Below, in pieces: positions 662 to 4,451 of a DNA stretch of 64,000 nt. The number at the start of each line of letters is the position of its first letter. Within the stretch, counting starts at the first letter, position 1. The DNA is from Phaeodactylum tricornutum CCAP 1055/1 (lineage: Eukaryota > Bacillariophyta > Bacillariophyceae > Surirellales > Neidiaceae). The stretch spans positions 1,364,001 through 1,428,000 of the forward strand of contig NC_011671.1 in the NCBI RefSeq assembly GCF_000150955.2. Direction: 5' to 3'. A program made the position numbers and the translations under genes. Below the pieces are notes generated by a model, which was not told the origin of the DNA, searched no databases, and saw only the letters and a program-made list of their open reading frames with translations.

Positions 662-2983
662 TTAGATGTATTCCGGAAAGGTTTCTTGCAAATGCGTTTT
701 CAGAGCTGCGACGTCCGCGCCTGGGTGTGTAATGATCCAGTTTGATTGCTCGTCCATAACGTCTCGAAATGCTGGTCCTTTCGGAATACCTTTTAAAATG
801 CTCGTTTTCAAAGTATCACCGTCTAGTAGAGGCGGCTGATCCCAAATGCCTATCAATCCAGTTTGCTGTAGAGCCGTCGCAAACGCGTCATATCGTTCGA
901 TCACTCCTTGTCGTCGCTCCTCCAGTATCTCATCAAACACATCTCCTTCAATAGTGTAATCCAGTCTTGTAAATCCATCTTCCAAGGTTGCCATGGCCTC
1001 AGAAATACTCAAAAATAATGAGGCACGCCATAGTGGGCCAACCCGCTGTAAAGGTTTCGCACAAAGCATTCGGAACTCCATCGCATGTTGCCATACTGGA
1101 TCTTCTTCAACTGCACTGTCAACGAGGCGTCCATTCATTGTACCAATTAAACTTCCGGTCAGGCCCTCTGATTTGTCAAACTCGTCACAACTAGCAACGT
1201 ACGTAATCCGGACGTCGCTCAAGAGGATCATGGTAGCTGAAATGTCACAGCCAGCGTTTACTAATTGTGTAAAATCTGTGGAAGCCTTGATGATACGCTC
1301 GACAGCCTCGGCGTCTCGGGTAGGTCGCTTGAGTTTATCCACCAGCAACTTAGCAACGGCGGAACGATTCGCTTTCCTCCCTGTCAGTTTTGGGTTGGAT
1401 GCCTGTCTCACTGGCGTACGATCGTGAATTGGCTTTAGAAAAGCAGCGTACCATAACAGGCGACGAGCTTCTTCGTCTTGTAAAAGACGGTGTTCGACGG
1501 CTCCAAAGGCTGCACGGGAGTTCTTGCACCATAAAGGCGGTGACCATCGGCAATCTGCCAAATGATCATGTGAAGTAGATAACAGCTCAAGCCCTTTGTC
1601 AAATAGAGTAGCTGTAGATGTCGTTTTATCCGGTGCCAAATAGTGCTCAATCGGGAAAACTGTATCAATCAGCCTCAGATTGATCAAAAGCCGCATGGCA
1701 CCAACTGGATCGGGCGATCGCAGCATGAGATCCAGTTCTCCTCCAACTCGTTCACGTGACACTTTTTGCGCCAACGCGTTTCGCACAGATTTATCTTTGG
1801 CGGCTGCTACTAGTTCATCGTCCATGGTAAAGCGTAGACGCGCCGCAAAGCGTACCGAGCGCAAGGCTCGCAATGGATCGTCCAACAGAGTGGTAAGTGG
1901 CGGTAAGGGCGTCGCGACTACGCCTTTACGTAAATCATCAAAACCACGACCTGTCCAGTCTTCAACCTGCCCACTATTGACGTTGTAAAACAAGGCATTT
2001 ATGGTCAAATCACGGCGAAAGGCGTCTTCGGCGGCGGTACCAATTCGCATCAAATCAGGAATACGGCTAGCTTGTGTGTATTCCTCGGCGCGGAGATTAA
2101 CGAAATCTATCCAAAAGGAACCAACCTTCATAGTAGCAGTTTCTAAATGCTTCGACTTTTCGGGATTTTTTAAAACGACTCCGACCGCGATGGTATCCTG
2201 GCCTTCCATCGAAAGGTATTCATTCAAACGGTCGGCGAACTCTCGTCCCAACATATCATCCAACGCAATGTCGATATCAACAGGTTGTGCATCTTTGTCG
2301 GTATTCACCAATACTTTGGTGCCTTGCCGTCCCATGGACGGTGCCGACGGTTTTTGAAACTTTGAAGTAAGGCGTTGACTACCAACATCCAATACTTTGT
2401 GATAAGTCTGAAACTCTGGGGTTGCGAGCAGCTTGTCCCGCACCCACCCCCCAGCAACCCGTAATGTGGTATCCAATTTGGTTTCGGAACGGACTTGGCG
2501 CAGGAGGGTAAACAAAGCCCGTTCCTCTTCCGTGAGCTGAATTGATGGGCCGTAGCCCTGGCGGGGTTGTGTGGGCAACGCAGAAATCCCTGGTGCGCTA
2601 CTACTACTACTCTTCGTGTGCGTATTGCGCCGTTGTGTTTGCGGTTGCGCCTGTCTTTGTTGTGACGTTGGCGGCACGCGGCGAGAGTCTTCCGATACAC
2701 GGTAAAACGAATTCTCGTATTCGATTGCGGCGGCCGCACCAGAGGCGAGCACAGAGGCTATCGTTGAGGAAGAAGATGCAAAGCGACAGTGTGAAGTAAA
2801 TTCGGCGAACGAGCCGCTTAAGAATCGTAGTTCACGCGAATCAAGTGCCATGTTAAGGTTGGAATTCCGAAAGGCGGATCGAGCGGTGACAGTGTTCCGT
2901 ATTCGTAGAGTTTGGCAGTTCGACGATTTCCTGAGGACAACGAGTGGCGTAGGCCGAGCTACCCACGCGATAGTAGACTTCAT
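662..2983 (-). CDS. CCA-adding enzyme (tRNA nucleotidyltransferase), probably organelle-targeted or dual
   Basis: Class II tRNA nucleotidyltransferase / poly(A) polymerase family, which adds or repairs the 3' CCA end of tRNAs. The head domain shows RVAGGWVRDKLL, then the catalytic DIDIALDD aspartates, RRDLTINALFYN, and the DDPLRALRSVRFAARLRF block that links to the nucleotide-selecting helix region; a long helical body follows. I chose the ATG at 2983 (773 aa) because it opens a basic, Ser/Arg-rich leader suited to a mitochondrial presequence. The frame stays open to an ATG at 3268 (868 aa), but that extension looks unlike protein and contains the promoter-type motif near 3096-3115. The region between about 2300 and 2700 encodes a low-complexity Ser/Gln/Arg linker before the head domain. 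Family call is firm; start and cellular location are inferred. Confidence 0.93.
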   Translation of the reverse strand: MKSTIAWVARPTPLVVLRKSSNCQTLRIRNTVTARSAFRNSNLNMALDSRELRFLSGSFAEFTSHCRFASSSSTIASVLASGAAAAIEYENSFYRVSEDSRRVPPTSQQRQAQPQTQRRNTHTKSSSSSAPGISALPTQPRQGYGPSIQLTEEERALFTLLRQVRSETKLDTTLRVAGGWVRDKLLATPEFQTYHKVLDVGSQRLTSKFQKPSAPSMGRQGTKVLVNTDKDAQPVDIDIALDDMLGREFADRLNEYLSMEGQDTIAVGVVLKNPEKSKHLETATMKVGSFWIDFVNLRAEEYTQASRIPDLMRIGTAAEDAFRRDLTINALFYNVNSGQVEDWTGRGFDDLRKGVVATPLPPLTTLLDDPLRALRSVRFAARLRFTMDDELVAAAKDKSVRNALAQKVSRERVGGELDLMLRSPDPVGAMRLLINLRLIDTVFPIEHYLAPDKTTSTATLFDKGLELLSTSHDHLADCRWSPPLWCKNSRAAFGAVEHRLLQDEEARRLLWYAAFLKPIHDRTPVRQASNPKLTGRKANRSAVAKLLVDKLKRPTRDAEAVERIIKASTDFTQLVNAGCDISATMILLSDVRITYVASCDEFDKSEGLTGSLIGTMNGRLVDSAVEEDPVWQHAMEFRMLCAKPLQRVGPLWRASLFLSISEAMATLEDGFTRLDYTIEGDVFDEILEERRQGVIERYDAFATALQQTGLIGIWDQPPLLDGDTLKTSILKGIPKGPAFRDVMDEQSNWIITHPGADVAALKTHLQETFPEYI

Positions 2984-4176
2984 GGTAATTGCGTGTAGCA
3001 GTATGAGTAGATTTACTGTTAGCCCCTGTATCCACCGAACGCGAGCCAATGGCTTGGTGGCAAGACGTCTTGACTTGCTGCGGTAAGTTGCTGGGTTGAC
3101 TGTGAGTGTGAATGGATTGTTTGTTGTCGAACAATGGCACTCGGTAGTAGTCCCTCGATGGCTGGGGTAACTTCGTCTTCGATGTCGTCTTGGTCGCTGT
3201 CGATGGGATTGCGACGACAAGAAAAAGATTTCCGCGTTTGTTGTTTGGAACAAGGCCGACTTGACCATAGCACCAGGTATGTACTGACTGCAAAGGGTAA
3301 GTGAAGTACAGCAACGGAAGTCGTGCCTTGCTATGATGGGATGATCAAAACAGATTCTTCACTGGTGTTCTTGTGAATCAATTGTAAAAGTATGGTTTGG
3401 TAGACTTTGTCAGAGGACAATCAAAAGTTGTCAATCCGCCCAAGTCGAAGGACCCAAGGCGAATCGCTTTTTTGTTTGTTGTCTGCGTCTGCGTTGGCAG
3501 TTGTGGGATCGTGGGATCGTGGGTGTGGGGGTGAAGTATCTATCTATGCCTTGACGTGGGTTGGTGGAATGTTCGGTCGGAGGGCAACGAAGACGACGTG
3601 CACAGCGGTTCTGTTTACGTCAACCTTTCCGTCGCCATTGTCGTATGGGTACGTACGACACTTTACAGGTTCCTTTTACATTTACAGGTATGTTATGTTA
3701 CTGTTTGTCACTGCCGTGCGTTCGGTCCATCACGGACGTTGATTCGGATGAGCTGTTGTTATTTTCTAATTCGTGTCGTTCGCGGACGATTCACAGCTGA
3801 AAAGAGTCTCTCCTCAACGTACATTTATGTTCCTTACAAATAATAAATCTTAAAAAGCCTTTAGGTAGTATCGCTGGAAATGTTGAAATGGCCGTGTCGG
3901 AGATTCTTCAACGTTTCCGGGTGGATGGATATCTCCGGATCCCGCAAAAAGACCTTTGTTCATGAGTCCAAATTCCGGGTTGTATCGAACGATTGACAGC
4001 TATTCGGTTTCACATCGGGCGAGAGATCCACAGCGGAACTATGGCACAATTCGTTTTTTGCTTTTTTTCCAAACCAATATACTATCAAAAGGATTCAATG
4101 CAAACTCTGGTAGAGGAATGCCATTTGTACAGTAACTTTCATTGGTTGACAAAATGAAAAGCAGCAAAAGAAGAAC
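2984..4176. other. Intergenic / 5' region between CCA enzyme and tRNA-like locus
   Basis: No convincing protein gene. The stretch next to the CCA enzyme carries a TGACTGTGAGTGTGAATGG-type motif (3098-3115), which fits its promoter. Several overlapping short plus-strand frames near 3407-3843 lack any family signature. T-runs at about 4140-4170 on the minus strand could terminate a Pol III transcript from the adjacent tRNA-like locus. Confidence 0.45.
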
Positions 4177-4258
4177 TCATAAGACCCTCACTCTGACCAC
4201 TGAGTTACAAGAGCTATGGAAATGCTCAAGCAGAGGTTTGAACTCTGGACCAAGGGCT
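4177..4258 (-). tRNA. Candidate circularly permuted tRNA gene, tRNA-Ile(UAU)-like
   Basis: On the minus strand the 3' half comes first (4258 to 4223) and the 5' half second (4214 to 4177), with an 8-nt spacer TTTCCATA (4222-4215). The 3' half reads: anticodon-stem strand GCCCT, variable TGGTC, a perfect 5-bp T arm CAGAG-TTCAAAC-CTCTG, acceptor CTTGAGC, discriminator A. The 5' half reads: acceptor GCTCTTG, T8 A9, D arm ACTC-AGTGGTCA-GAGT, G26, anticodon stem AGGGT, loop CTTATGA with anticodon UAU. AGGGT pairs fully with GCCCT (one G-U). Joined at 37/38 it makes a 73-nt cloverleaf. The flanks also pair: GTTCTT after the 5' half (4176-4171) with AAGAAC before the 3' half (4270-4265), as expected for a splicing substrate. 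Oddities: two adjacent U-U mismatches (5-68, 6-67) in the acceptor stem, A10 instead of G10, and G37 instead of A37. A and B boxes are present in swapped order. It could be a decayed locus. Confidence 0.6.
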
Positions 4259-4451
4259 GCATTCGTTCTTTTCGCAACGGGGTTGCTACCTTCGCGTCCG
4301 TACTGAGTTCTACAGGTCGTTTTTTAAGTATATATTCATTAAGAAAATGGGTCTTCAGAATAAGCACGCAGCCAGCAATTTTGCGTTCAAAGTCTCATTC
4401 ACGTCAAGCTCACTGCCATCTCGATGCCAACCGCAAAGAGTACATTTGACC

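Follow-up and report, generated by a model that had tools for sequence, protein, structure and literature searches.

A candidate circularly permuted tRNA-Ile(UAU) gene in the nuclear genome of the diatom Phaeodactylum tricornutum and a second gene of like architecture

Organization of the tRNA-Ile(UAU) locus

The window, i.e., the whole stretch of DNA analyzed, comprises 64 kb (C3:1364001-1428000) of the Phaeodactylum tricornutum genome, which was searched over 27,450,724 bases in 88 contigs. On its minus strand, the 3′ half of a tRNA precedes the 5′ half, with a short spacer between the two (Table 1). The pieces were placed with longer strings, each unique on the minus strand of the window. 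Joining the halves at 37/38 gave a 73-nt tRNA with the anticodon UAU, which ARAGORN called tRNA-Ile(tat), in agreement with the cloverleaf length and the identity given in the original prediction. That prediction was also right about the two halves, their order, their strand, and the 8-nt spacer, and was off by one base at the end of the 5′ half, which is 4178 (G37) rather than 4177. Position 4177, the first base past the junction, is an A, the same as A38, so that cuts at 37/38 or at 38/39 would yield an identical product.

Table 1. Features of the Ile(UAU) locus (positions in the window) and of the Arg(ACG) locus (positions on C30).
Feature	Position	Strand	Remarks
Ile(UAU), TATA-like element TATATA	4334-4329	minus	76 nt upstream of 3′ half; candidate external pol III promoter element
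Ile(UAU), AAGAAC	4270-4265	minus	outer helix, upstream strand; precursor only; pairs over 6 bp with GTTCTT (MFE fold, fixed register)
Ile(UAU), GAATGC	4264-4259	minus	6 nt, outer helix to A38; its AUG predicted to pair with anticodon UAU
Ile(UAU), tRNA 3′ half, positions 38-73	4258-4223	minus	anticodon 3′ strand, variable loop, T arm, acceptor 3′ strand, A73
Ile(UAU), spacer TTTCCATA	4222-4215	minus	8 nt, between halves; would be trimmed from mature ends
Ile(UAU), tRNA 5′ half, positions 1-37	4214-4178	minus	acceptor 5′ strand, D arm, anticodon 5′ strand, UAU, G37
Ile(UAU), GTTCTT	4176-4171	minus	outer helix, downstream strand; begins 1 nt past G37
Ile(UAU), TTTT run	4169-4166	minus	candidate pol III terminator, 8 nt past 5′ half
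Arg(ACG), tRNA 3′ half	79326-79291	minus	
Arg(ACG), spacer		minus	18 nt, between halves
Arg(ACG), tRNA 5′ half	79272-79237	minus	

The anticodon stem of the joined molecule pairs at 5/5 positions, as predicted (one pair, 31-39, is G-U), the D stem at 4/4, the T stem at 5/5, and the acceptor stem at 5/7. The landmarks U8, A14, G15/C48, G18G19, U33, U54U55C56, A58, and C61 are all present. The closest of the genome's own tRNAs compared is Ile(AAT), with 69% identity. The sequence has UAU and A73 but carries G at position 37, and its acceptor stem contains the adjacent mismatches U5-U68 and U6-U67. These mismatches and G37 had been raised as cautions, and they proved to be real departures: an acceptor mismatch was found in 1/27 own class-I reference tRNAs (Thr(TGT), a single U6-U67), and A37 follows U36 in every one of the 10 own reference tRNAs that carry U36. 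A37 (t6A) is the rule in tRNA-Ile(UAU), and G37 is the most worrying base of the candidate. The yeast tRNA-Ile(UAU) has a single U6-U67 mismatch; its sequence is identical to the candidate at 49/73 positions.

The TATA-like element of the Ile locus has a counterpart at -60 from the 3′ half of the second gene, tRNA-Arg(ACG), described below. TATA-like words were present upstream of both permuted genes and in 12 of the 24 own conventional upstream regions (110 nt) that had flanks long enough to be counted; among 5000 110-mers drawn at random from the window, 3.7% contained such a word. The TTTT run downstream of the Ile 5′ half has no equivalent inside the gene, and a TTTT as near was found at 5.1% of random places. 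Hence, the putative pol III signals appear to flank the Ile halves rather than separate them.

The locus sits between a frame resembling a CCA-adding enzyme and, upstream on the opposite strand, an LSm2-like frame. The former (PolyA_pol domains; window 662-3268, minus strand) starts ∼0.9 kb downstream of the permuted tRNA on the same strand. Enzymes of the CCA-adding class finish tRNA 3′ ends; the proximity is probably a coincidence. The named relatives of this protein belong to Fistulifera, Seminavis, Cylindrotheca, and Nitzschia among the 120 of 1822 matches listed, most of which are unnamed; these being diatoms, an organellar or bacterial origin of the window was rejected, and the diatom host originally assumed was upheld within the same set of matches. 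Coding sequence at the Ile(UAU) locus was likewise rejected, as the overlapping open frames are short.

Model scores and the tRNA set of the genome

A covariance model of permuted tRNAs (A1/R1) was built from 27 conventional class-I tRNAs of the genome permuted at 37/38, with the candidate left out; neither this model nor the profile described below was trained on 12 further loci, which have long variable arms or parse oddly. A permuted-aware scan had been proposed together with the original prediction, and it placed the Ile(UAU) locus at the top of the window with 63.2 bits (E 5.5e-23 over 64 kb, E-values of this model being rough owing to a short calibration), followed by a runner-up at 9.8 bits. 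At 56 other loci, mostly with conventional tRNAs, the best score was 34.9 bits. With a simple structure-aware profile, the joined Ile(UAU) scored 55 bits, ranking 27th of 28 against 47.8–81.6 bits for the 27 own tRNAs scored by leave-one-out. Exchange of halves among the genome's own tRNAs, always across isotypes and with 35 of the 39 parsed sequences (4 loci being omitted), produced an anticodon stem of 5/5 together with an acceptor stem of at least 5/7 in 4/1132 combinations. A chance arrangement of tRNA-like words, favored by nothing more than the outer helix, whose weight in isolation is modest, is therefore negligibly probable in view of the E-value, the distance to the next match, and the rarity of swapped halves that pair equally well.

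ARAGORN and Rfam (gathering cut-off) detected no tRNA anywhere in the window, which is expected for a permuted gene. It was observed that three tandem-tRNA junctions in viral contigs scored 45–50.6 bits with the permuted model, level with the 50.7 bits of the Arg gene. The model alone thus does not separate a permuted gene from a tandem junction, and the absence of neighboring tRNAs is essential to the case. Tandem tRNAs at the Ile(UAU) locus were rejected, since ARAGORN and Rfam showed no adjoining tRNA and the DNA search returned only these halves genome-wide. Two neighboring tRNAs with long introns were also rejected, neither half having a second copy by the genome DNA search.

A conventional tRNA-Ile(UAU) gene elsewhere had been named as a finding that would count against permutation. 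None was found by the genome DNA search with the joined tRNA, in which only the two halves matched, or by the Rfam scan, a family scan known to miss other tRNAs. The genome scan with RF00005 gave at least 51 matches (63/882 first-look candidates scored); a conventional Ile(AAT) gene is present in the genome, and Ile(UAU), Arg(ACG), and Cys are absent from the 51 matches. The scan missed Pro(AGG), recovered by DNA search (labeled Leu by ARAGORN, the anticodon AGG being a manual reading), as well as Glu(CTC) and Leu(CAG), recovered at B-box sites. The Sec tRNA, which belongs to a different Rfam family, was found later. ARAGORN, run on 50 of the 51 RF00005 loci, returned nothing in one and mislabeled at least two; Arg(TCT) (L049), Pro(TGG) (L050), and Arg(CCT) (L040) are manual readings, and the 51st locus is Pro(CGG). 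The PlantRNA database reportedly holds curated P. tricornutum tRNAs.

Three B-box patterns gave 233, 68, and 83 sites, against 177, 48, and 23 in the respective reversed controls. Regions with unassigned B-box sites, 140 in all (60 + 80), were scanned; 100 of the 233 sites of the first pattern were listed, the others being covered only where one of the two narrower patterns matched them, and all but a few of the listed sites were included. In the later 80 regions, matches to the permuted model reached at most 14.6 bits, and ARAGORN returned a Leu(AAG) that had been identified before and one implausible prediction. The tRNA-Cys was not found by the Rfam scan, the DNA search, or the B-box region searches of the genome; its gene may have a disrupted or permuted form that escapes these searches. 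Sequences of tRNA-Cys and of yeast Ile(UAU), used as DNA queries, gave no genome match, an empty result that is uninformative.

Three further tRNA genes, whose isoacceptors are manual readings, are interrupted between positions 7 and 8: tRNA-Pro(CGG) (L053, C23:271424 region, minus strand), tRNA-Pro(TGG) (L054, C23:291835 region, plus strand), and tRNA-Arg(TCT) (L055, C4:636333 region, minus strand). The inserts (86, 75, and 80 nt, respectively) start with GTAAGT or GTGAGT and end with AG, similar to spliceosomal introns, and their removal results in a 7-bp acceptor stem in each case; at L054, ARAGORN instead picks a nearer GTCCGGG with three G-U pairs. Introns of the mRNA type are not known to occur in tRNA genes, and no title on this subject was present among the literature matches listed.

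A tRNA-Arg(ACG) gene of like architecture and the predicted precursor folds

The B-box-seeded search, among its first 60 regions, led to a second permuted gene, tRNA-Arg(ACG), at C30:79326-79237 on the minus strand (50.7 bits with the permuted model). The joined halves make a tRNA-Arg(ACG), ARAGORN concurring, with an acceptor stem of 7/7 (two G-U), an anticodon stem of 5/5, and one C-A at the D-stem pair 13-22. It carries U73 in place of the A73 seen in the own Arg(TCG) and Arg(CCG). In the landmark comparison with this gene, the structure-aware profile contained fewer references, owing to two pairs with a shared name. No tRNA was detected in the surrounding region (L104, C30:78900-79700) by Rfam (gathering cut-off) or ARAGORN, and no other copy of Arg(ACG) was found by the genome DNA search. 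As no tRNA was found beside either the Ile or the Arg locus, a tandem pair was excluded. Arg(ACG), via inosine, is the usual reader of CGT and CGC codons, which make up 251/554 Arg codons in ten long ORFs of the window; hence, without a conventional gene, the permuted Arg(ACG) would be important. A sub-threshold Rfam match to YrlA (Y RNA-like) also lies over this gene (L104 442-325, minus strand; 29.4 bits, cut-off 69) and perhaps reflects a shared tRNA-like shape.

The flanks of both genes pair as an outer helix, of 6 bp in Ile and 9 bp in Arg, in an identical register, 1 nt after G37 and 6 nt before A38. At this fixed register (200,000 trials), 0.037% of random places reached at least 6 bp and 0.0015% reached 8 bp; in any register (30,000 trials), the corresponding values were 1.9% and 0.15%. 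The 6-bp pairing of the Ile flanks had been part of the original prediction, and the pairs themselves stand. Taken alone, they are only moderate evidence, since 1.9% of random places do as well in any register and the same flanks give 7 bp in an alternative register; with G-U allowed, 6.4% of random places match the Ile outer helix.

The MFE fold of the 107-nt Ile precursor was predicted to contain the outer helix, a 3-bp helix between anticodon and intron, and 2-nt loops at both cut sites. The isolated arm folded into a different outer register, with the GAATGC stretch paired differently. Compared with shuffled sequences, the Ile folds showed no added stability (precursor z -0.54, joined z -0.21), and the Arg precursor was more stable (z -2.46). 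In the best fold of the Arg precursor, only the outer helix, the anticodon stem, and the T arm survive; the spacer takes up the acceptor 3′ strand, and the D arm adopts a different pairing. There is a 2-nt loop at the 3′ site, and the 5′ site shows an isolated G37-C pair flanked by 1-nt loops. For the joined Arg tRNA, the predicted fold is a cloverleaf. In the MFE folds of both genes, the anticodon bases face the same intron positions (34 with -2, 35 with -3). A strict 4-bp central helix is absent from both precursor folds, and the predicted junction motif is at best a relaxed bulge-helix-bulge.

Interpretation and comparison with known permuted tRNA genes

On the basis of the arrangement, the model score, and the second gene, the Ile(UAU) locus is very probably a functional type II (37/38) circularly permuted nuclear tRNA gene whose product would mature through a circle, its expression being a prediction. 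The permutation at 37/38 originally proposed thus gains from both the 63.2-bit match and a second gene of like architecture, and the latter makes it likely that such genes also serve a diatom. By analogy with Cyanidioschyzon, pol III would read the 3′ half, the spacer, and the 5′ half as a single RNA. A cloverleaf would form in which the spacer loops across the acceptor end and the flanks pair as the outer helix; the tRNA splicing endonuclease would then cut after G37 and before A38, and a ligase would close the RNA into a circle by joining 37 to 38. The 8-nt spacer would be excised by RNase P and RNase Z, and addition of CCA would complete a linear tRNA reading AUA, a codon that accounts for 67/390 Ile codons in ten long window ORFs. 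Transcription, cutting, circle formation, ligation, charging, and decoding are all inferred for Ile(UAU) by such analogy. As for the machinery, PF01974 (tRNA-splicing endonuclease) has two matches in the genome, one of them in a frame with a stop, and no match to RtcB was found in the genome; Trl1 ligase homologs are reported to occur in diatoms (PMC4090602).

The strongest rival, which we regard as unlikely, holds that the locus is the decayed remnant of a tandem pair of tRNA-Ile(UAU) genes, whose outer halves were lost and whose inner part is not processed into a tRNA, AUA being read by inosine-34 of tRNA-Ile(AAU). Such a history would account for the U-U mismatches and G37, would be tolerable given the conventional Ile(AAT) gene, and would leave a junction that the permuted model does not distinguish. 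Against it, the separated anticodon strands still pair at 5/5, although two tRNA copies would match initially without selection; the register of the outer helix is common to Ile and Arg(ACG), no conventional copy of either was found, and the T-run and the TATA-like element are in place. It is more improbable still that the permuted gene is transcribed and processed into a non-standard product, e.g., a tRNA-like RNA that is stable as a circle, or a minor form with a regulatory role. G37 and a weakened acceptor stem, unlike the other tRNAs of the genome, would suit such a product, whereas the retention of the general tRNA landmarks and the steady use of AUA codons speak against it.

The functional permuted gene, taken together with the Arg(ACG) gene, leads to a broader proposal, which in our estimate is evenly poised between true and false: that two or more tRNAs of the diatom nucleus, namely Ile(UAU) and the decoding-critical Arg(ACG), come exclusively from permuted, circle-matured genes, and that these genes belong to a larger set of disrupted tRNA genes, which includes mRNA-type GT-AG introns at 7/8 of tRNA-Pro and tRNA-Arg. 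If true, permutation would have reached a stramenopile, via either an independent origin or the red-algal endosymbiont. A diatom with two permuted tRNA genes would extend such genes to the stramenopiles and is a warning that the number of tRNAs in a diatom genome can be underestimated by standard scans. Phaeodactylum tricornutum is a genetically tractable model, and a tractable host would allow tests of how permuted genes arose, whether they are needed, and how they are processed.

Permuted tRNA genes of type II (37/38) are described for Cyanidioschyzon merolae, Ostreococcus, Micromonas, and the Bigelowiella natans nucleomorph in a 2014 review, which counts 34 permuted tRNA genes in six algae and one archaeon, lists spacers of 1-74 bp for all types in its Table 1, and describes TATA-like elements upstream and a T-stretch downstream of the C. 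merolae permuted genes (PMC3978253). Permuted tRNA genes of Auxenochlorella were described in 2025 (PMC12636532). The known hosts are a red alga, prasinophytes, Auxenochlorella, a nucleomorph, and an archaeon. The genes described here are similar to the type II genes of the review in having the 3′ half first, a 37/38 junction, a short spacer (here 8 and 18), and no encoded CCA, and to those of C. merolae in the T-run after the 5′ half and the TATA-like element upstream of the 3′ half. They deviate from the former in their diatom nuclear location, in being known here from sequence alone, in the isoacceptors Ile(UAU) and Arg(ACG), which are missing from the table of the review, and, for Ile, in the two U-U acceptor mismatches and G37 (PMC3978253). 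In Auxenochlorella, too, permuted genes were found because the tRNA set looked incomplete; that host, in contrast, is a green alga, and the comparison is one by description (PMC12636532). The tRNA-Ile(UAU) gene of C. merolae, with three introns, is a disrupted algal gene for the same isoacceptor, but as described its introns are in normal order with no permutation (PMC9602550).

In the small-RNA study of Phaeodactylum, tRNA genes were reannotated with tRNAscan, and the word "permuted" is absent from that paper (PMC4247016). The original prediction knew of no permuted tRNA gene described in diatoms; in agreement with this, none was found reported in the openly licensed literature searched, as far as its accessible text goes (including PMC13353863, PMC8450103, PMC9602550, PMC4090602, and PMC4929541), which does not prove priority.

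Apart from the diatom genes, a permuted tRNA-Lys(CUU)-like arrangement with an encoded CCA was observed in the viral contig IMGVR_UViG_3300019709_000001 (L205 1226-1141, minus strand), the isoacceptor being a manual reading. A closely matching pattern was found only in this contig. The arrangement has an acceptor stem of 7/7, an anticodon stem of 5/5, and the outer helix TTATTTGTC/GACAAATAA, and it scored 49.7 bits with the permuted model, with a fold z of -3.32.
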